DNA of 7,186 nt from JBHIBR01 sp046759145 [NCBI: Nitrospinota bacterium] (GTDB taxonomy: Bacteria > UBA8248), in NCBI GenBank assembly GCA_046759145.1, contig JBHIBR010000092.1, positions 1 to 7,186 on the forward strand, given 5' to 3'. Position 1 is the first letter of the stretch, and every line of letters begins with the position of its first letter. Positions 1 through 7,186 of this stretch are shown piece by piece. A model generated the notes under the pieces. The model worked only from the letters and a program-made list of their open reading frames with translations, did no database searches and was not told where the DNA came from. A program made the translations under genes and the position numbers.

Positions 1-162
1 GGCATCGGCCGTGGCCTGCATGGCGGTCCGGACGAAGTAGAGATAACCCACGTCCACGGCGAGGGCGGCGAAGCCCAGGAGGACGGGAAGCATGAGGGCG
101 AAGAGTACGAGGGCGTTGCCCGCCTCGCCCCGACGCCGCACGATCTTCGTCCTTTTGTCCAT
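1..162 (-). CDS. TadG-like Tad pilus pseudopilin, 5' part only (paralogue 1)
   Basis: This is the first 54 codons of a TadG-like gene that runs off the left edge. The ATG at 162-160 is chosen because a GGAGGAGGGG Shine-Dalgarno lies about 7 bases before it. A longer frame from TTG at 186 would translate that site itself as NEEEG. The protein opens with a basic stretch (KRTKIVRRRG), then EAGNALVLFALMLPVLLG, the single membrane anchor at residues 16-39, and then the VGYLYFVRTAMQATADA block typical of TadE/TadG-type pseudopilins. In this family the anchor holds the protein in the inner membrane with the rest outside the cytoplasm, where it acts as a minor component of Flp pilus assembly. The visible 162 bases are identical to the start of the next gene upstream. 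Whether the missing 3' part is intact or differs cannot be seen here. Confidence 0.85.
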   Translation of the reverse strand, partial: MDKRTKIVRRRGEAGNALVLFALMLPVLLGFAALAVDVGYLYFVRTAMQATADA

Positions 163-178
163 GACGCGCCCCTCCTCC

Positions 179-204
179 TCATTCAAGGCGCATTGAAACC
201 GTCT
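179..204 (-). pseudogene. tadE: tadE 3'-tail remnant before paralogue 1
   Basis: On the minus strand this reads (E)TVSMRLE followed by TGA, matching the QTVTMRHE-stop end of the intact tadE at 2954-3364. The body of tadE is missing, and the sequence immediately upstream (205 to about 300) matches the leader of the intact tadE. The junction carries AGACGGTTTC. The same ten bases occur at the start of the intact tadE (3361-3352) and in the tadE tails before paralogue 4 and the decayed copy, so the deletion probably arose between short direct repeats. The stop codon overlaps the first bases of the ribosome-binding site of the following TadG-like gene. Confidence 0.75.
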
Positions 205-237
205 CCCAGCAGAGCTCCGCGCATGCCTCCGCGGCGC

Positions 238-279
238 TCACCCGTAAGTGGGACGCCCGGTGAGGGGAAATCTTTTCAT
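238..279 (-). CDS. 13-codon leader ORF (copy 1), unknown
   Basis: This short reading frame, MKRFPLTGRPTYG, is preceded by a strong GGAGGTG site five bases before the ATG. Its start and site are conserved in front of the intact tadE, where the product begins MKGLPLSGRLTY and continues to 26 residues. Here it ends early at TGA. Base changes between the two versions are not confined to synonymous positions, so the case for a functional peptide is modest. It could equally be the decayed 5' part of the leader ORF that overlaps the intact tadE. The identical second copy is at 1624-1665. Confidence 0.3.
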   Translation of the reverse strand: MKRFPLTGRPTYG

Positions 280-292
280 TTTTCACCTCCAT

Positions 293-315
293 GCGAGCTC
301 CGAGCTCGCTTTTTT
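293..315 (+). terminator. Palindrome plus T-run, terminator-like on the plus strand (copy 1)
   Basis: GCGAGCTCCGAGCTCGC is a perfect inverted repeat (arms of 8, centre of 1) followed on the plus strand by six T. That is the form of an intrinsic terminator for rightward transcription, although no gene on the plus strand would use it. On the minus strand, the direction of the genes, the six A come first and the hairpin sits directly before the GGAGGTG site of the leader ORF. There it could instead modulate translation. An identical copy is at 1679-1701. Confidence 0.4.
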
Positions 316-459
316 GGGCGGGCGCCCCACAAATCGCCCTTTGGGTGACTGGTTTCACACCCCGATGGGGGTCCGCCCGCACAGGCCGGACGTATCCGCC
401 CGCTCGGCAGGCGCACCCCTTCAGGCAGAAGAAGGAGAGGCGTGAGGGAGGGGTGACCC

Positions 460-1548
460 CTAGCTGAGGAGCTTGGGGGCCGCGGCGCTGCCGCTCCCCG
501 CGGGAACGGGGATGGGGGACAAATCCGGAGAATTGACTATATGCCGGATCACGTCGAAGGTGAGAAAGAGCTGCGATTGCTTCTTTACGAGCTTCTTCAT
601 CTTAATGACGTAGAAGCCGATCACCCGGGATTCGCTCAAGATGTTGCCCTGGTGGGTGTAGTATTCCACCTCGGGCACCACCACGACGGGGTCATTCAGT
701 ATCCGTTTGCGGATGGAATGCATCAAGACCCCGTTGAAGTTCCCGTATTGGTCGCCATGGACGGGAAGGAGGTCTCCAAAGTTGATAGTCCCCGTATAGT
801 TCTTGACCCCCTCAATGTGCCAGCCGATGTCTTTCGCAGACCAGTCGCGGGTGAAGTAGACCGCCTGGAGGCCGTCCTCTCCGCTCCCGAAGTCCTCCCC
901 GGCGCACGGGTCGTCGCCCTTCATGCCGCATCCGATCCGAAGTTCGAAATCATCATCACTCCTGTTATCCCCAGAATCGACGTCGTTCCAGGGCCGGCCC
1001 GGGCAGTTCATGCCGCCCGTCCTGACTCCTATATTTACGCCCTGGAGAACACGGGGATCGGGCGCCGACGGCATGGGGCAATAGACGGCCAGGGGTATGA
1101 GGTTGCTCCCCGTGACCGCGTTGACCCCCGAGAGGCCGCACGTAGCCGTAGCGGCGACGGGGGCCGTCGTCCAACCGAGGATCCGCCCGAAGAAGAGGCG
1201 CATGGCGGGGTTGCTCACCGTGGTGCTGATGACATCGGTCGAGGGAAACGAGACCGCCAGGGTGGTGGGCTGGTCGGAATTCCCGAGGATGGTCATCTGG
1301 GCGATGTTCCGATCTCCGATGGCGGTCGCACGCGCCGTGGATTCGACCTCGCTCTCCAGGAGTCCCGACGCGCCCGCCAGACAGCTGGCATCGGCCGTGG
1401 CCTGCATGGCGGTCCGGACGAAGTAGAGATAACCCACGTCCACGGCGAGGGCGGCGAAGCCCAGGAGGACGGGAAGCATGAGGGCGAAGAGTACGAGGGC
1501 GTTGCCCGCCTCGCCCCGACGCCGCACGATCTTCGTCCTTTTGTCCAT
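460..1548 (-). CDS. TadG-like Tad pilus pseudopilin (paralogue 2)
   Basis: The product is 362 residues from the ATG at 1548, which has GGAGGAGGGG about 7 bases upstream. A TTG 24 bases earlier would only add the translated Shine-Dalgarno. The first 15 residues are basic, residues 16-39 form one membrane anchor (GNALVLFALMLPVLLG...), and the next block VGYLYFVRTAMQATADA is the TadE/G-like signature. The remainder is an extracytoplasmic domain with cysteines at 56, 137, 157, 182, 207 and 215, the later ones suited to disulfides. Residues 160-220 differ strongly from paralogue 3, while FTRDWSAKDIG (232-242) and the APKLLS end are shared. Length fits short TadG-like proteins; no von Willebrand A domain is evident, unlike classical TadG. 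The role inferred from the family is minor pseudopilin of Flp pilus assembly in the inner membrane. No promoter is evident just upstream, so read-through from the tadE unit is likely. Confidence 0.9.
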   Translation of the reverse strand: MDKRTKIVRRRGEAGNALVLFALMLPVLLGFAALAVDVGYLYFVRTAMQATADASCLAGASGLLESEVESTARATAIGDRNIAQMTILGNSDQPTTLAVSFPSTDVISTTVSNPAMRLFFGRILGWTTAPVAATATCGLSGVNAVTGSNLIPLAVYCPMPSAPDPRVLQGVNIGVRTGGMNCPGRPWNDVDSGDNRSDDDFELRIGCGMKGDDPCAGEDFGSGEDGLQAVYFTRDWSAKDIGWHIEGVKNYTGTINFGDLLPVHGDQYGNFNGVLMHSIRKRILNDPVVVVPEVEYYTHQGNILSESRVIGFYVIKMKKLVKKQSQLFLTFDVIRHIVNSPDLSPIPVPAGSGSAAAPKLLS

Positions 1549-1564
1549 GACGCGCCCCTCCTCC

Positions 1565-1590
1565 TCATTCAAGGCGCATTGAAACCGTCT
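1565..1590 (-). pseudogene. tadE: tadE 3'-tail remnant before paralogue 2
   Basis: Identical to the remnant at 179-204: minus-strand codons ending in ETVSMRLE and TGA, the last codons of a tadE whose body is deleted. The upstream bases 1591 to about 1686 match the leader of the intact tadE. Paralogues 2 and 1 therefore inherited the same deletion by later duplication of the already deleted unit. Confidence 0.75.
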
Positions 1591-1623
1591 CCCAGCAGAG
1601 CTCCGCGCATGCCTCCGCGGCGC

Positions 1624-1665
1624 TCACCCGTAAGTGGGACGCCCGGTGAGGGGAAATCTTTTCAT
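1624..1665 (-). CDS. 13-codon leader ORF (copy 2), unknown
   Basis: Identical to the small frame at 238-279 (MKRFPLTGRPTYG, GGAGGTG site five bases before ATG). It lies in the part of the spacer derived from the tadE leader. Function and expression are unknown, and being an exact duplicate it adds no independent evidence. Confidence 0.28.
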   Translation of the reverse strand: MKRFPLTGRPTYG

Positions 1666-1678
1666 TTTTCACCTCCAT

Positions 1679-1701
1679 GCGAGCTCCGAGCTCGCTTTTT
1701 T
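1679..1701 (+). terminator. Palindrome plus T-run, terminator-like on the plus strand (copy 2)
   Basis: Exact duplicate of 293-315: arms GCGAGCTC and GAGCTCGC around one base, followed by six T on the plus strand. The element is absent at the homologous position of the intact tadE leader, where only TCGGAGCT of it is kept. Confidence 0.4.
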
Positions 1702-1845
1702 GGGCGGGCGCCCCACAAATCGCCCTTTGGGTGACTGGTTTCACACCCCGATGGGGGTCCGCCCGCACAGGCCGGACGTATCCGCCCGCTCGGCAAGCGC
1801 ACCCCTTCAGGCAGAAGAGGGAGGGGAGTGAGGGAGGTGTGACCC

Positions 1846-2937
1846 CTAGCTGAGGAGCTTGGGGGCCACGGGGCTGGCGCTCCCCGGGTCGGGGTAGGGG
1901 ACCAAACGCGGAGATTCGACTATGTGCTGGACCACGGTGAATTGGACAAAAATCTGCGATTGCCTGAACTTGACGTCGTCTATCCGAATGGCGTAGAAGC
2001 CTATTATCCGTGATTCGAGCAGGATTGCGCCCTGGTCGGTCCAATACTCAATCTCGGGCACGAACACGGTGTCCCCTATCCGCTTGCGGATGGCGGGATA
2101 CAAGACCCCGTTGAAGTTCCCGGTTTTGTCGCCATGGGCGGGAAGGAGCTGTCCTGCCCACAGCGTCCCGGCGTATTCCTTGGTCCCATCAATGTGATGG
2201 CCAATGTCCTTCGCAGACCAGTCGCGGGTGAAGTAGACCGCCTGCAAGCTGTCCTCTGCGGGGTCGAAGTTGGGCCCGGCGCACGGTGCGTTGCCGGTCA
2301 TGCCGCATCCCACTCGAACCCAATTACCGGGAGGAAGCCCGGTCTGAGGCCTCCCGGGCTGATACCCGGGCCCCCAGGGGCGACCCGGGCAGGTACTCGG
2401 TTGTGTTGAGTATGTATAGACAGTGGTATTTATGGGATCCGTCGGGACGGGGCAATAGACCCCCAGGGGTATGATGCCGCTCCCCGTGACCGCGCCCACC
2501 CCCGAGAGGCCGCACAAAGCCGTAGCGGCGACGGGAGCCGTCGTCCAACCGAGGATCCGCCCGAAGAAGAGGCGCATGGCGGGGTTGCTCACCGTGGTGC
2601 GGATGTTCCTGGCGGATGATCCTGAGACGGGCGGAAACGAAACCGCCAGGGCGGTGGGCTGGTCGGAATTCCCGAGGATGGTCATCTGGGCGATGTTCTG
2701 GTTGCCGATGGCGTTCGCCCGGTTGGTGGCCTCGGCCTGGCTCTCCAGGAGTCCTGACCCGCCCGCCAAGCAGGCGGCATCGGCCGTGGCCTGCATGGCG
2801 GTCCGGACGAAGTAGAGATAACCCACGTCCACGGCGAGGGCGGCGAAGCCCAGGAGGACGGGAAGCATGAGGGCGAAGAGTACGAGGGCGTTGCCCGCCT
2901 CGCCCTGACGCCGCACCCCCTTCGTCGCTTCACCCAT
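1846..2937 (-). CDS. TadG-like Tad pilus pseudopilin (paralogue 3), paired with tadE
   Basis: The product is 363 residues from the ATG at 2937, with GAGGAGGAGG 6-9 bases upstream. The tadE stop lies 16 bases before this start, so the two are probably translationally coupled. Residues 1-15 are basic, 16-39 are the membrane anchor, and 40-60 carry VGYLYFVRTAMQATADAACLAG. Cysteines are at 56, 142, 162, 183, 211 and 219, in the same order as paralogue 2. The stretch between cysteines 162 and 211 is different in sequence (Pro/Gly/Thr-rich here, acidic in paralogue 2). FTRDWSAKDIG and the terminal APKLLS return to near identity. It is the only TadG-like gene still adjacent to a complete tadE, and so the best candidate for the ancestral arrangement. 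The family role is pseudopilin or minor component in Tad (Flp) pilus biogenesis. Confidence 0.92.
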   Translation of the reverse strand: MGEATKGVRRQGEAGNALVLFALMLPVLLGFAALAVDVGYLYFVRTAMQATADAACLAGGSGLLESQAEATNRANAIGNQNIAQMTILGNSDQPTALAVSFPPVSGSSARNIRTTVSNPAMRLFFGRILGWTTAPVAATALCGLSGVGAVTGSGIIPLGVYCPVPTDPINTTVYTYSTQPSTCPGRPWGPGYQPGRPQTGLPPGNWVRVGCGMTGNAPCAGPNFDPAEDSLQAVYFTRDWSAKDIGHHIDGTKEYAGTLWAGQLLPAHGDKTGNFNGVLYPAIRKRIGDTVFVPEIEYWTDQGAILLESRIIGFYAIRIDDVKFRQSQIFVQFTVVQHIVESPRLVPYPDPGSASPVAPKLLS

Positions 2938-2953
2938 GACGCACGCCTCCTCC

Positions 2954-3364
2954 TCATTCATGGCGCATCGTGACCGTCTGGCTCAGGTTGATCGTCCCCC
3001 CCCACCCCGGGACGAAGGTGCTGAGGAAAGGGCCCGTGAGCACGGCGAAGGGGTAGGTCACGGTGACGGTGGTGGGGGCTCCCGTCGCCGCGGCCGCGCC
3101 CACGTTCGCCACGGTGACGGTCGCGGTCGCCGTCATGTTGGCGGAAGCCAGGTAGTCGTTTACCTTCTGAGTGACATCGGCTTCCGTGGTGGTGGTGAGG
3201 ATGCCCACCCGCGCCCCCTCCCGGGCGGCGTTGGTGATGACCTGCATGTTCCAGTACGCACGGGCGAACTCCATTATGCCGAGGGCGATGAGCAGGAAAA
3301 CGGGGAGGATGAGGGCGAACTCTACCAGCCCTTGCCCGCCGCAGCGCCTGGGAAACCGTCTCAC
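2954..3364 (-). CDS. tadE: TadE-family pseudopilin
   Basis: The product is 136 residues. The start GTG at 3364 is preferred because GGAGGTC lies six bases before it; a GTG at 3379 adds five residues but has poor spacing. Residues 10-54 are a classic TadE domain: GQGLVEFALILPVFLLIALG with the glutamate after the cleavage-like glycine (GLVEF), a membrane segment at 12-34, then FARAYWNMQVITNAAREGAR. The rest is a Thr/Val/Ala-rich extracytoplasmic domain. TadE is a minor pseudopilin of Tad (Flp) pili, processed in studied systems by the prepilin peptidase TadV, and is normally encoded beside tadF/tadG as here. Its first codon overlaps the stop of an upstream small ORF (GTGA) and its stop is 16 bases from the TadG-like start. 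It is the only complete tadE; at least three other copies survive only as tails. Confidence 0.95.
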   Translation of the reverse strand: MRRFPRRCGGQGLVEFALILPVFLLIALGIMEFARAYWNMQVITNAAREGARVGILTTTTEADVTQKVNDYLASANMTATATVTVANVGAAAATGAPTTVTVTYPFAVLTGPFLSTFVPGWGGTINLSQTVTMRHE

Positions 3365-3441
3365 AAGTGACCTCCCCACATTCCTCCCCTCCGCTGCGCT
3401 CGCCTGTAAGTAAGACGCCCGCTGAGAGGGAGTCCTTTCAT
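3361..3441 (-). CDS. 26-codon small ORF overlapping the tadE start, unknown
   Basis: The frame runs from ATG at 3441, with GAGGTG five bases before it, to a TGA that overlaps the tadE start as GTGA. The product starts MKGLPLSGRLTYRRAQRRGG and is basic, with no membrane segment. The first twelve codons and the ribosome site recur in the spacers before paralogues 1 and 2 as a shorter frame. The tadE ribosome-binding site lies inside its last codons, so its translation should influence tadE initiation. It may be a leader peptide used for coupling, or only a chance frame. Nothing recognisable in sequence. Confidence 0.4.
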   Translation of the reverse strand: MKGLPLSGRLTYRRAQRRGGMWGGHL

Positions 3442-3443
3442 CT

Positions 3444-3530
3444 TCACCTCAGCCCCAGCTCCGAATTATACCACAAAAGCTGTTTGCGGAGGTAGCGATC
3501 GGCCTCGGCGAGGGCTACCTTGGGCTTCAC
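3444..3530 (-). CDS. 28-codon small ORF, first frame after the sigma-54 promoter, unknown
   Basis: The start is GTG at 3530 with GAGGAG six bases upstream. The product starts MKPKVALAEADRYLRKQLLW and ends ELGLR, a charged, helix-prone peptide. Most third codon positions are G or C, like the real genes nearby. Promoter, leader, ribosome site and the first codons (GTG-AAG-CCN-AAG) are conserved at the second sigma-54 promoter, where the frame runs into a tadE tail. Its stop lies two bases before the next small ORF. I do not recognise a family. It could be a genuine small protein, the remnant of a longer gene, or a translated leader. Confidence 0.4.
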   Translation of the reverse strand: MKPKVALAEADRYLRKQLLWYNSELGLR

Positions 3531-3590
3531 CTTCCGCTCCTCAAGGACTTTGGGCGTCCCGCCTCGCTGCCGCTCCGCCCTGTGCAGGAA

Positions 3591-3606
3591 GCAACGGCCG
3601 TGCCAA
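3591..3606 (-). promoter_or_regulatory. Sigma-54 (RpoN) promoter of the tadE unit
   Basis: The minus strand reads TTGGCACGGCCGTTGC, which matches the -24/-12 consensus TGGCACG-N4-TTGC with exactly ten bases between GG and GC. Transcription should start near 3579, about 49 bases before the first small ORF and 215 before tadE. Sigma-54 promoters need an upstream-bound ATP-dependent activator; inverted repeats at 3713-3729 and 3854-3870 are candidate binding sites. Conservation with 5653-5668 continues through the leader to the GTG of the small ORF. Confidence 0.85.
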
Positions 3607-3712
3607 GGGGGGCGAGGGAAGGGATCGCCTATAGAAGATACATGTTTTCAATAGGTTGCCGTTATGCCCCATCTGTCGGCTGAGCCGACCGCCACTCAGC
3701 CGGGGAAAAAAA

Positions 3713-3729
3713 TGGGGAGTTTAGCCCCA
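3713..3729. repeat. 17-bp inverted repeat, candidate activator site
   Basis: TGGGGAGTTTAGCCCCA, with TGGGG/CCCCA arms around seven bases. It is identical to the elements at 5745-5761 and 6144-6160 and lies about 134 bp upstream of the predicted start of the tadE transcript, a usual distance for an RpoN activator site. Confidence 0.6.
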
Positions 3730-3847
3730 CGGCCTATGCCGGAAAAAGCGGTAAGGAGGTCATGAACAATAGGTTAGGAAAATCTGGCGGATCGGGCATT
3801 TTTTACCCAGCGGGGGATAACGTACTTACGATTAAGAAATCAAATAC

Positions 3848-3913
3848 TTATAGTGGGAAGAGATTCCCCATCGCCCCGCCCCGACGTCGCACCCTCTTCA
3901 TCGCTTTCACCAT
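3848..3913 (-). pseudogene. tadG 5'-end scrap fused to a repeat module
   Basis: The frame MVKAMKRVRRRGGAMG followed by NLFPL and TAA copies the first ~15 codons of the TadG-like genes (MGEATKSVRRRGEAGN). It also retains the GTGAGGGGGCACGTCATG start context. Homology stops exactly where the inverted repeat at 3854-3870 begins. It lies 11 bases beyond the stop of paralogue 4. It marks the breakpoint at which a following tadG body was replaced by the regulatory modules of the next unit. Confidence 0.7.
3854..3870. repeat. 17-bp inverted repeat, candidate activator site (variant)
   Basis: TGGGAAGAGATTCCCCA, a diverged version of the element at 3713. The spacing of 141 bp between the two equals that between 6144 and 6285. 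It forms the right boundary of the module and the breakpoint of the tadG scrap. Confidence 0.5.
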
Positions 3914-3924
3914 GACGTGCCCCC

Positions 3925-4971
3925 TCACTCAAGCAGGCGCACCACCATAACGGAGTTGAGCTCGGTGCCATCGGCGGGGGGGGCAAAGTCGGCGGGCGAG
4001 ACCGTAGTTTCGGTAACCGTAAACGTCATGTGGTCGGTGTTTCCTTCCTCCCCGAAGTAGTTTATCGTTATAGCGACGAATTCGATGATCTGGACTTGCC
4101 GGCCGCCGTAGCCCTGGGGATCTTGTTTGACTACCGGGATAATTACCTCGTTGCGCTCCTCGAGGAGCCGGTTATACATCCCAGATTGCCAGCCATTCCG
4201 GTTCCCAGGGAGGGCACAGTTGTCATCGTAGGTGGTCCCCTTATAACCGTTATAGACCAGGTCACGGAATGTGGCGTTGCTCATAGTTACCCACACGTTA
4301 TCCTCTCCCCTGTAATTGCAAACGTTACCCGGGCCAAGCGCGATGCCCATGAGGAACACTTCATCCGGCGTGAAGGCGTTCCCGCAAGCGTCCCCGTTCC
4401 CGCTGACGTAAAAGTTGCCGCAGTAGCGCCGGAGTGTCTCTGGATTGTTACCATTTAGCATATTCTGTAGGAATGTTTGGCAGTTGTTGGTCGGGGTGCA
4501 AACAACGGCGAGGGGGATTAAGTCCCTCGCAACGTGGGTCGCCGGCGTGAGGCCGCACGTAGCCGTAGCGGAGACGGGAGCTGTCGTCCAACCGAGGACC
4601 CGAGCGAAGAAAAGGCGCATGGTGGGGTTGCTCACCGTGGTGCTGATGTCCAGGTCGTCGTCGGATGGAAACGAAACCGCCAGGGTGGTCGGGTGGTCGG
4701 AATTCGAAAGGATGGTCATCTGGGCGATGTTCTGATCTCCGATGGCGGTCGCGCGCCGCTTGGCCTCGCCCTGGCTCACCACGAGTCCCGACCCGCCCGC
4801 CAAGCAGGCGGCATCGGCCGTGGCCTGCATGGCGGTCCGGACGTAGTAGAGATAACCCACGTCCACGGCCAGGGCGGCGAAGCCCATGAGGACGGGAAGC
4901 ATGAGGGCGAAGAGGACGAGGGCGTTTCCCGCCTCGCCCCGACGGCGCGCGCTCTTCGTCGCTTCACCCAT
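3925..4971 (-). CDS. Divergent TadG-like Tad pilus pseudopilin (paralogue 4)
   Basis: The product is 348 residues from the ATG at 4971, with GAGGAGGAGGG about 7 bases upstream. The first ~155 residues follow the array pattern: basic start, membrane anchor 16-39, VGYLYYVRTAMQATADAACLAG, TTVSNPTMRLFFARVLGWTTAP and CGLTPATHVARDLIPLAVVC. From about residue 158 it has little in common with paralogues 2 and 3. It carries eight cysteines (56, 139, 158, 164, 184, 196, 218, 252), lacks the FTRDWSAKDIG block and ends VRLLE. That end vaguely resembles a tadE tail. The distinct C-terminal half may be an alternative surface domain brought in by recombination, or the product of older divergence. It is preceded by the tadE tail that ends the decayed cassette, so translation may once have been coupled to it. 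Confidence 0.88.
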   Translation of the reverse strand: MGEATKSARRRGEAGNALVLFALMLPVLMGFAALAVDVGYLYYVRTAMQATADAACLAGGSGLVVSQGEAKRRATAIGDQNIAQMTILSNSDHPTTLAVSFPSDDDLDISTTVSNPTMRLFFARVLGWTTAPVSATATCGLTPATHVARDLIPLAVVCTPTNNCQTFLQNMLNGNNPETLRRYCGNFYVSGNGDACGNAFTPDEVFLMGIALGPGNVCNYRGEDNVWVTMSNATFRDLVYNGYKGTTYDDNCALPGNRNGWQSGMYNRLLEERNEVIIPVVKQDPQGYGGRQVQIIEFVAITINYFGEEGNTDHMTFTVTETTVSPADFAPPADGTELNSVMVVRLLE

Positions 4972-4987
4972 GACGCGTCCCTCCTCC

Positions 4988-5514
4988 TCATTCATGGCGC
5001 ATCGAAACCGTCTGGGTCAGGTCGATCGTCCCGGGGCGGCCCGGGCAGATCGGGACAGGGCAATAGACGGCCGGGGTATAAGGCCATTCCCCCTGACTGA
5101 GTTGGCCGCCGAGACGCCGCACGTAGCGGACACGGGAGCCGTTGCCCAACCGATGACCCGCCAGAAGAAGAGGCGCATGGCGGGGTTGCTCACCGTGGCG
5201 CGGATGGTCGTGCCGGATGGAAACGTGACCGTCAGGAGGGAATTGGCGAGGGCCGCCGTCTTCTGGTTGATGTTATGCTTGCCGATGGCGGTCCGGCGCA
5301 CCGTGGCCTGGGCCTCGCTCTCCAGGGGTCCTGCCCCCCCCGCCAGGCAGGCGGCATCGGCCGTGGCCTGCAAGGCGGTCCGGGCGTAGTAGAGGTAACT
5401 CACGTCCGCGGTGAGGGCGGCGAAGCCCAGTAATACAGGCAGCAGGAGTGCCAAGAGAACGCCGGCCCTTCCGGCCCGGCCCCGACGCCGCACACTCTTC
5501 GTCGCTTCCCCCAT
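4988..5514 (-). pseudogene. Frameshifted tadG::tadE fusion (decayed paralogue 5)
   Basis: From ATG 5514 (AAGGAG site 6-7 bases upstream) the frame reads a TadG-like N-terminus: basic start, anchor LLALLLPVLLGFAALTADV, YYARTALQATADAACLAG, TVSNPAMRLFFWRVIGWATAP. The open frame ends at 5017 (165 residues) after an unrelated tail, because one base is missing between 5072 and 5073. Paralogue 2 has CCAGGGG in this place against CCGGGG here. Restoring it gives LAVYCPVPICPGRPGTIDL then TQTVSMRHE and a stop at 4988, that is, a tadG cut after the CPGRP motif and joined to the last 14 codons of tadE. So a deletion removed the 3' half of this tadG and nearly all of the next tadE, and the frame was later lost. 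A short membrane-anchored peptide may still be made. Confidence 0.82.
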
Positions 5515-5530
5515 GACGCGCTCCTTCTCC

Positions 5531-5593
5531 TCATCCACCCCGCATCGAAACCGTCTGGCTTTGGGCTTCATCTTCGTCTCCCTTTGGCTTCAC
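5531..5593 (-). pseudogene. Small ORF fused to a tadE tail
   Basis: The frame starts at GTG 5593 after an AAGGAG site six bases upstream and reads MKPKGDEDEAQSQTVSMRGG then stop. Its beginning matches the small ORF at 3530-3444. Its end, SQTVSM, is the tadE tail (LSQTVTMRHE in the intact gene). The second small ORF and the tadE body are therefore deleted here. A 22-bp duplication (GGCTTCA-CTTCGTCTCC at 5564-5581 and 5586-5603 on the plus strand) repeats the ribosome site and start. The second start, ATG 5571, lies in frame with the decayed tadG and would add 19 residues to it. Confidence 0.55.
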
Positions 5594-5652
5594 CTTCGTC
5601 TCCTTAAGGACTTTGGCGTCCCACCTCGGTGTCGCTCCGGCCTGTATGAAAC

Positions 5653-5668
5653 GCAATGGCCGTGCCAA
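5653..5668 (-). promoter_or_regulatory. Sigma-54 (RpoN) promoter of the decayed unit
   Basis: The minus strand reads TTGGCACGGCCATTGC, an excellent -24/-12 match with ten bases between GG and GC. It differs from the promoter at 3591-3606 at one base of sixteen. Start of transcription is expected near 5641. The ~60 downstream bases, including a GGAC...GTCC hairpin, are strongly conserved between the two units. It remains intact although the first gene behind it is broken, and may now serve paralogue 4. Confidence 0.85.
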
Positions 5669-5744
5669 GGGGGGTGTTGCCTAAAGAAGACGTATGTTTT
5701 CAATGTGTTGCAGTTATATCCCATCTGTTCGGCCGGGAAAGGAC

Positions 5745-5761
5745 TGGGGAGTTTAGCCCCA
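5745..5761. repeat. 17-bp inverted repeat, candidate activator site
   Basis: TGGGGAGTTTAGCCCCA, identical to 3713-3729 and 6144-6160. Its centre is about 110 bp upstream of the expected start from the promoter at 5653-5668. Confidence 0.6.
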
Positions 5762-5895
5762 CCGCTTATGCGGGTAAATCCGTAAGTGTTTTATAAACAA
5801 CTTCTTAACGATGAGTAGCGAGAATGTGAGCAGGTTCGCACTAATTTATTTTCGAAACCAAAACATAATTACTATTAGCAAATCAGGCACTTAGC

Positions 5896-5913
5896 ATGGG
5901 GGAAATTACTCAC
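5896..5913. repeat. Degenerate inverted repeat between modules
   Basis: ATGGGGGAAATTACTCAC retains the GTGGG/CCCAC-type arms with mismatches. Identified by its position between two modules and by its GGGAAATTAC core shared with 6284-6302. Confidence 0.45.
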
Positions 5914-6019
5914 CAACCGCCTGGGGCAAAAGCCCTTCCTCTAGGGGGGCATTTCCACAAAATGCACGTGTTTTCAATTTGTTGCCGTTACCTCGCATGC
6001 GTTCAGCCGGAAAAAATTA

Positions 6020-6038
6020 GTGGGGAGAAATTACCCAC
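6020..6038. repeat. 19-bp inverted repeat between modules
   Basis: GTGGGGAGAAATTACCCAC, with GTGGG/CCCAC arms. It lies 124 bp from the previous element and 123 bp from the next. Confidence 0.55.
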
Positions 6039-6143
6039 AAGCAGCCTATGGCGAAAGCCCTTCTTCTAGGGAAGCGTTGCCTACAAAAGACATATACTTT
6101 CAATGCGTTGTCGCTATATCGCATCCATTTAGCCGGGAAAAAA

Positions 6144-6160
6144 TGGGGAGTTTAGCCCCA
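6144..6160. repeat. 17-bp inverted repeat between modules
   Basis: TGGGGAGTTTAGCCCCA, the same 17 bases as at 3713 and 5745. It is followed after 8 bases by the GCCT-GAAA-GGGC hairpin. Confidence 0.6.
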
Positions 6161-6283
6161 TGGCCCATGCCTGAAAGGGCGTAAGTAGTTCATGAACAAT
6201 ATGTTAACGAAATCCAGCGAGGTTACGCAGCTTCTATCCGGCGGGGGATAACATACTTCTTATTGATAAATCAAATACTTATA

Positions 6284-6302
6284 GTGGGGGGAAATTACCC
6301 AC
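6284..6302. repeat. 19-bp inverted repeat at the array end, beside the oxidoreductase stop
   Basis: GTGGGGGGAAATTACCCAC, with GTGGG/CCCAC arms, begins 9 bases after the stop of the minus-strand oxidoreductase gene. As a hairpin it could help end that transcript, but there is no T-run after it, so a terminator call is not justified. Confidence 0.5.
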
Positions 6303-6311
6303 CGCCCGCAA

Positions 6312-7186
6312 TCATCCGCCCCCGCGGCAAGGGGGGAGCACCTCCTCGCCCACACGCTGGAGGGTCTCCAGGACCAGTCCCTGGGGCATCCCCGGCCACT
6401 GAATGCTGAAGATGAAGTGGTTCACCCCGAGGCGACGGTGGTGGGCGAGGACCTGCTCCGCGCATTCCTCCGGTCCCCCCAGGATGAAGCGGTCGCGGAG
6501 CAACTCCTCGAAGGGGATGTCGAAGGAGGTGTCGTCCCCGGGGAGCGCGCGGTCCTGGCCCCAGCGGTGGTAGGCGGCGTATTTCGTCTCGAGGTAGGGC
6601 CGCGCCAGGCGGATGGCCTCCTCCCTGTCGCGGGCGCAGAAGAGCTCCCTCCGCATCGGGAGCTCCTGGGGGAAGGGACGGCCCGCCTCCTCCAGCGCCC
6701 GCCGGTAGAGGGCTACCTGCCGCTCCAGGGTAGAGAGGCGCGCATGGGGATTCAGGTACCAGCAGTCGCCGATCCGGGCCGCCCGGCGGACGCCTGGGTC
6801 CGAATCGGCAGCCACCCAGATGGGGGGGTGGGGGCGCTGGAGCGGTCGGAGAAGGAGAGAGGCCCTCTCGAGGCGGAAGCGGGGGCTCTCCCAGGTTACC
6901 TCCTCCCCCGCCCAGAGGCGTTTCACCACCTCCAGGTTCTCCAGCAAGCGCCCCACGCGCTCCCGGCGGCTCATCCCGAAGGCGGCGAACTCCTCATCCC
7001 GGTAACCCAGGCCCACCCCGAAGACGAGCCTCCCGTCCGTGATGACGTCCAGGGTGGCGTACTGCTCGGCGACATCCACCGGGTTGTGGAGCGGGAGGAG
7101 CACAACCCCGGCCACGAGCCGCATCCCGGGAGCCTCGGCGGCCAGGCGGGCGAGGAAGGGCAACTGCTGGAATTCCTGGAATGGGG
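6312..7186 (-). CDS. LLM-class (luciferase-like) flavin-dependent oxidoreductase, 5' end missing
   Basis: The reading frame stays open to the right edge, so the start is outside the window; the TTG at 7163 is an internal leucine. The visible 290 residues have the landmarks of the bacterial luciferase/F420-dependent family: PLHNPVDVAEQYATLDVITD then GRLVFGVGLGY (about residues 31-62), RFRLERASLLLRPLQRPHPP followed by IWVAADSDPGVRRAARIGD, and a C-terminal PEECAEQVLAHHRRLGVNHF strand. These proteins fold as a TIM barrel and use FMN or coenzyme F420 to oxidise a small substrate in the cytoplasm. Substrate and cofactor cannot be told from this part. Family members are about 330-350 residues, so some 50 are missing. 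It has no visible link to pilus assembly, and the repeat array separates it from the pilus units. Confidence 0.9.
   Translation of the reverse strand, partial: PFQEFQQLPFLARLAAEAPGMRLVAGVVLLPLHNPVDVAEQYATLDVITDGRLVFGVGLGYRDEEFAAFGMSRRERVGRLLENLEVVKRLWAGEEVTWESPRFRLERASLLLRPLQRPHPPIWVAADSDPGVRRAARIGDCWYLNPHARLSTLERQVALYRRALEEAGRPFPQELPMRRELFCARDREEAIRLARPYLETKYAAYHRWGQDRALPGDDTSFDIPFEELLRDRFILGGPEECAEQVLAHHRRLGVNHFIFSIQWPGMPQGLVLETLQRVGEEVLPPCRGGG

Follow-up and report, generated by a model that had tools for sequence, protein, structure and literature searches.

Organization of the array

The stretch of DNA analysed here (the window) comprises 7186 bases of a Nitrospinota bacterium (JBHIBR01 sp046759145; assembly GCA_046759145.1, contig JBHIBR010000092.1, positions 1–7186) and carries five copies of a tadG-like gene, arranged head to tail on the minus strand, with a tadE gene between the second and the third. 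The copies are lettered A to E in the order of transcription and correspond to copies 5, 4, 3, 2 and 1, respectively, of a first-pass annotation made from the sequence. They are mosaics: their 5' halves are alike, synonymous sites included, and their 3' halves are diverged or remotely related. Read along the minus strand, the gene order is an LLM-class oxidoreductase, about 800 nucleotides (nt) of repeat-bearing DNA with no called gene, A, B, a non-coding region, tadE, C, D and E. A profile scan of the window proteins at curated cut-offs identified PF13400 in all five copies and PF07811 in tadE. The five TadG-like copies of the first-pass annotation therefore stand as five 5' ends; two of them are incomplete, A being a frameshifted stump and E being cut at the window edge, and the row is not uninterrupted, since an intact tadE that had gone unmentioned (3379–2954) separates B from C.

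Three copies are full length: B (3925–4971), C (1846–2937) and D (460–1548). Copy A (5017–5514, ATG at 5514) is frameshifted, has lost its 3' half and runs into a tadE 3' end, and copy E (1–162, ATG at 162) is truncated by the window edge after 62 codons, the part seen being the same as D. A Shine-Dalgarno-like sequence and an ATG are kept in each of B, C, D and E, and the start is most likely the ATG behind GAGGAGGAGG (4971, 2937, 1548 and 162, respectively), eight codons into the longest frames. The first start of the longest frame is a TTG in D (1572) and E (186) and an ATG in B and C, the better start being the ATG 24 bases downstream. The tadE gene (2954–3379) is the sole intact one for the three full tadG copies in the window, and its stop codon lies directly ahead of the ribosome-binding sequence of C.

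Constant and variable halves of the copies

An exact block of 130 nt is common to E, D and C (1–130, 1387–1516 and 2776–2905), confirming an identity of about this length reported in the first-pass annotation, and a run of 130 nt was matched by none of 2000 codon shuffles. The longest identical runs are 130 nt for C–D, 54 nt for C–B and 34 nt for D–B (equalled by 0, 0 and 4 of 2000 codon shuffles), and the identity between E and D extends for 409 nt (1–409 versus 1387–1795), taking in most of the spacer. Over the constant half as a whole, the nucleotide identities of B to C and of D to C are about equal (89.0% and 89.7%), and the stump A is 79–83% identical to the other copies. Further downstream, C and D drop to 17/40, 18/36 and 18/33 identical positions in three adjacent blocks at 961–1076 (43–55%; 40-column blocks) and become alike again toward the 3' end (74.6% identity over 485 columns), with FTRDWSAKDIG and APKLLS occurring in both; the divergence and renewed convergence that had been described for these two copies are thus borne out. 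The description of their centres as cysteine-rich was overstated, as C, D and B have four, four and six cysteines, respectively, in their variable parts.

The border between the two halves coincides with the end of homology to an ordinary annotated TadG. Residues 18–148 of B match residues 11–150 of a TadG encoded on a plasmid of Pseudosulfitobacter pseudonitzschiae (BLASTP E value 6 × 10−11), with the match ending at the border, and PF09977 ends at residue 149 of this plasmid protein. The guanine-plus-cytosine (GC) content falls across the border from 67–68% to 56–62% in B, C and D. Together these observations identify the constant half as the TadG core and the variable half as a C-terminal extension. 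Homology of the core to annotated TadG is counted against by PF09977 itself, which falls short of its cut-off in A, B and C and has no entry for D.

The 3' half of B is strongly divergent and lower in GC (3925–4548; 56%, with a third-position GC of 0.72, versus 67% and 0.84 in its constant half), which hints at a different origin. BLASTP of the C-terminal half of B against C and D gave no significant match (best E values 0.19 and 0.076), and a local shuffle test was weak (59 and 11 of 1000 shuffles equalled the score). In global alignments against C and against D, by contrast with the local ones, none of 1000 shuffles reached the score (z about 5), making this half likelier to be a remote relative of the C and D halves. 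An unrelated C-terminal domain in B was dropped as a candidate after this test, and the second half of B is probably a remote relative rather than the wholesale replacement that had been proposed for it.

Synonymous divergence and breakpoints

In a codon alignment in which columns 9–155 represent the constant half and columns 156–401 the sequence beyond it, synonymous divergence (dS) in the constant half is 0.14 (C–D), 0.16 (C–B) and 0.20 (D–B), against 0.36, 1.97 and 1.07, respectively, beyond the border, the C–B value of 1.97 coming from a comparison in which 238 of 2000 bootstraps were undefined through saturation. Fisher tests of this jump on rounded synonymous counts gave p values of 0.0023 (C–D), 7.6 × 10−19 (C–B) and 2.4 × 10−10 (D–B), and in these pairs the best-supported synonymous breakpoint lies after comparable codon 160, 155 and 148, respectively, and was equalled by 15, 0 and 0 of 2000 codon shuffles. 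Within columns 31–60, C and D show no synonymous difference at 24.7 sites. The jump and the position of the breakpoints near the border therefore support recombination or homogenization of the 5' halves, an outcome the first-pass annotation had allowed for as concerted evolution of the 5' ends; the uniform divergence and lack of border breakpoints that it had set against its own proposal are not what is observed.

These data also bear on whether the array is simply an old tandem family whose 5' half has been kept alike by purifying selection, with no recombination between copies. The constant half is the TadG core and could be constrained, and TadG paralogues do adjoin one another elsewhere, as in Thermomicrobium roseum (a pair 33% and 32% identical in the two stretches compared). 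However, the likeness in the constant half extends to synonymous sites (dS 0.14–0.20 versus 0.36 to 1.97 beyond), and the non-coding spacers that follow C and D resemble each other as well, so that constraint on the protein does not explain it. Ordinary paralogue divergence is accordingly regarded as quite unlikely.

Spacers and duplication history

The spacers behind C (C–D, 1549–1845) and behind D (D–E, 163–459) are nearly identical, differing at five bases (410, 433, 438, 441 and 452). Both, like the regions ahead of A and B, contain remnants of tadE. The 3' end of tadE recurs upstream of A (5541–5560; 20 nt, 90%, E value 0.009), upstream of B (4988–5032; 45 nt, 91%, continuing from A) and upstream of D and E (26 nt each, 85%; 204–179 in the D–E spacer), such that C alone is preceded by an intact tadE and the other four copies by leftovers of one. 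A leftover of a sixth tadG 5' end lies directly behind B (3873–3926), with 83% identity (45/54) over its 54 nt to the start of another copy. This is one of five leftover and spacer comparisons, each equalled by 0 of 300 shuffles, for segments that were picked after the alignments had been viewed.

The spacer ahead of D contains a stretch resembling the sequence upstream of tadE and then jumps to the end of tadE at AGACGGTTTC (1590–1581). This 10-mer also occurs near the start of tadE (3361) and in the tadE ends ahead of A (5556) and B (5013), and the end of the intact tadE holds just its first seven bases (2979). The spacer thus looks like the product of a deletion between short direct repeats. 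The leftovers and the sixth start fit a history of repeated duplication, deletion and homogenization of a promoter–tadE–tadG module.

Upstream regions and the neighbouring gene

The region upstream of tadE (3515–3872), a putative regulatory region, aligns with two stretches of the repeated region upstream of A (about 5578–6301), at 72% identity over 243 columns and 79% over 180. Three exact copies of the palindrome-like GGGGCTAAACTCCCCA are present (3728–3713, 5760–5745 and 6159–6144), one in the tadE region and two upstream of A, and a pattern derived from it has eight matches in the window with up to three mismatches, some of them elsewhere or overlapping, versus 1.04 expected (0 of 200 shuffles). 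Two exact sites of the sigma-54 type lie at corresponding places in the two regions (3605–3591 and 5667–5653) and are to be counted as a single site that was duplicated. When two mismatches are allowed, the pattern has three matches, fewer than the 6.3 expected. Sigma-54 control of the tadE–tadG module is accordingly a suggestion, and the repeated regions could possibly contain activator-binding sites. No match to an RNA element in Rfam was obtained up to an E value of 1. The non-coding repeats (5578–6310 and 3515–3872) are lower in GC.

Beyond the region upstream of A lies the gene for the LLM-class oxidoreductase (7184–6312), which is open at the right edge of the window. It has a GC content of 70%, and among the matches listed the best plasmid ones are about 43% identical and are located on haloarchaeal plasmids.

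Comparison with known systems

The closest functional parallel is found in Myxococcus xanthus. In a recent report, the TadG-type homologue KilN forms the backbone of a predicted minor-pilin tip, of which its C-terminal domain is the extremity; its base is conserved, the extremity differs between four paralogous clusters and disulfides are predicted, and customized Tad tips built elsewhere by TadE/F/G-type minor pilins are proposed (PMC12075869). Both systems have several paralogous TadG-like proteins with a conserved base and a variable C-terminal part, in the array at the level of sequence. The Kil proteins are encoded as TadE/F/G-like trios in four clusters, whereas the array is a single tandem row in which tadG mostly stands alone and the 5' halves are alike at the DNA level. 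By analogy, the array may follow the Myxococcus scheme of the same base with different ends. Among the papers listed in the literature searches, none treats recombining TadG arrays, as far as titles and the openings of abstracts reveal.

Plasmids do carry homologues of TadE or TadG, with 24 records for tadE as the query and 86 for the constant half of B at an E value limit of 1, all 86 below 60% identity and 40 of them from Pseudosulfitobacter. In the Pseudosulfitobacter pseudonitzschiae plasmid, tadE is directly followed by tadG, as at C, and its TadG shares homology with B over the constant half. There, however, a single tadE–tadG pair adjoins machinery genes, of which the window has none, and the array differs further in its C-terminal half and in having five or more tadG 5' ends. 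Five plasmid tad regions chosen from the match lists, which do not constitute a sample, were opened, and four of them contain one annotated TadG-related gene; the fifth, from Thermomicrobium roseum, contains two. Its tadG–tadE–tadE–tadG arrangement also resembles the array in that tadE is accompanied by more than one tadG and the 14 kb seen lack an annotated machinery gene. The two Thermomicrobium TadG proteins are 33% identical in the N-terminal and 32% in the C-terminal stretch and therefore lack a near-identical core.

In the Neisseria pilE/pilS system, one expressed gene is accompanied by silent donor cassettes in a donor–recipient layout. The array resembles it in that pilin-type genes are repeated and combine alike with variable stretches, and the first-pass annotation had likened the two. 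An antigenic-variation locus of this kind, in which an expressed tadG would acquire variable segments by gene conversion and so change the surface at high frequency, would account for a variable segment lying between alike segments, for length changes that keep the frame open, for identical flanks long enough for recombination and for an interval including 1 for the ratio of nonsynonymous to synonymous divergence (dN/dS) in the variable halves of C and D. A search of the 7186-base window with the variable segments from B, C and D found no separate variable-only copy. The B segment matches itself alone at the thresholds used; those of C and D match each other and about 50 nt of A, which has its 5' half. 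The pilE/pilS donor–recipient layout is therefore not seen in these 7186 bases. Nor is there a copied variable segment, as the difference between C and D extends through all of the 3' half and B resembles neither. The array further differs from pilE/pilS in that several copies have their own translation signals (a Shine-Dalgarno-like sequence and ATG in B, C, D and E) and in that it encodes a family of minor pilins, not the major pilin. The proposed silent cassettes are thus not supported within the window, and antigenic variation of the pilE/pilS type appears rather unlikely.

Interpretation

The array is probably, though far from certainly, a promoter–tadE–tadG module that has been amplified in tandem and reworked by recombination, and its products would be a repertoire of alternative minor pilins for the tip of a Tad pilus. 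Under this interpretation, the tadE leftovers, the sixth tadG start, the fusion of A to a tadE end and the duplicated upstream regions would record repeated deletions, which in D and E would have run from one short AGACGGTTTC repeat to another. The assembly part would be kept alike by gene conversion or unequal crossing-over within the spacer and the 5' half that the copies share; alternatively, distant 3' halves could have been brought in behind a shared 5' half. The C-terminal halves would diverge under weak or diversifying selection and form the exposed tip of the pilus, perhaps with sigma-54 control of the array. The outcome would be a repertoire of tips rather than one expressed gene with silent donors.

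Several points weigh against this interpretation. Between C and D the jump is a moderate one (p = 0.0023), and the 5' half includes unlike patches too (C–D dS 0.50 at columns 61–90), so that its likeness is patchy. The stump A (150 codons) has no breakpoint against C or B, with 461 and 523 of 2000 shuffles being equally strong, and it likewise has no unusual identical run against them (106 and 321 of 2000 shuffles). The dN/dS interval for the variable halves of C and D is 0.79–1.63, which spans 1 and does not distinguish relaxed from diversifying selection. The intervals for the constant half also reach 1 (0.36–1.48 for C–D; 0.36–1.30 and 0.26–1.01 for the other pairs). Neither positive nor strong purifying selection is thus demonstrated from C–D dN/dS in either half. 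On the supporting side, the frames of C and D are open throughout despite about 31% nonsynonymous differences in the variable half. The seven in-frame insertions or deletions between C and D were dropped as proof of selection; their whole-codon lengths follow from the protein guidance of the alignment.

Further points count against the interpretation. Structure models of C and B are unusable (mean predicted local distance difference test score 34 each, from alignments of four and three rows), and a comparison with solved structures gave a single match for C that is not credible (E value 0.3). A scan of the window proteins showed no Tad machinery gene (tadA, tadB, tadC or rcpA). The genome, viral and plasmid collections searched likewise yielded no relative of the locus. 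The scans of genome and viral contigs depend on exact short patterns, of peptide or DNA, so that diverged relatives can escape them. In genome contigs, none of 23 and 161 pattern matches was confirmed by tblastn, and viral contigs gave no relative with C, with tadE, with the oxidoreductase next to the array, with the TadG alignment or with a DNA pattern. Searches of plasmids with protein C and with the non-coding sequence of 3400–3900 also gave none.

Finally, base 1 of the window is the exact base at which the identity of C and D stops after the three-way 130-nt block. The assembly appears to have broken off there within a repeat, as though the contig had halted at a branch of the graph, and this too counts against the interpretation. 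An assembly graph would branch at such a position, and E and part of the D–E identity could then derive from a repeat that the assembler had left unresolved. The five bases at which the D–E spacer departs from the C–D spacer argue against the junction between D and the next 5' end being a mere duplicate of the C–D one, and A, B, tadE, C and D are independent of the left end. An artefact at the left end is thus a rather improbable explanation.

A stronger form of the proposal is that the array is a working diversification locus, in which recombination continues by way of the shared core and spacers and exchanges or generates C-terminal tip domains within one lineage, such that cells of one population would bear different tips. 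This appears unlikely; if true, it would constitute recombination-driven variation of a Tad minor pilin.

Were the copies nothing more than old paralogues, their spacers would still record the duplication and deletion of a tadE–tadG module in unusual detail. For the amplified and recombining module preferred here, a compact array whose assembly half keeps its likeness in DNA sequence as the tip half diverges would illustrate how repertoires of pilus tips can arise and would offer a place in which to look for tip switching.

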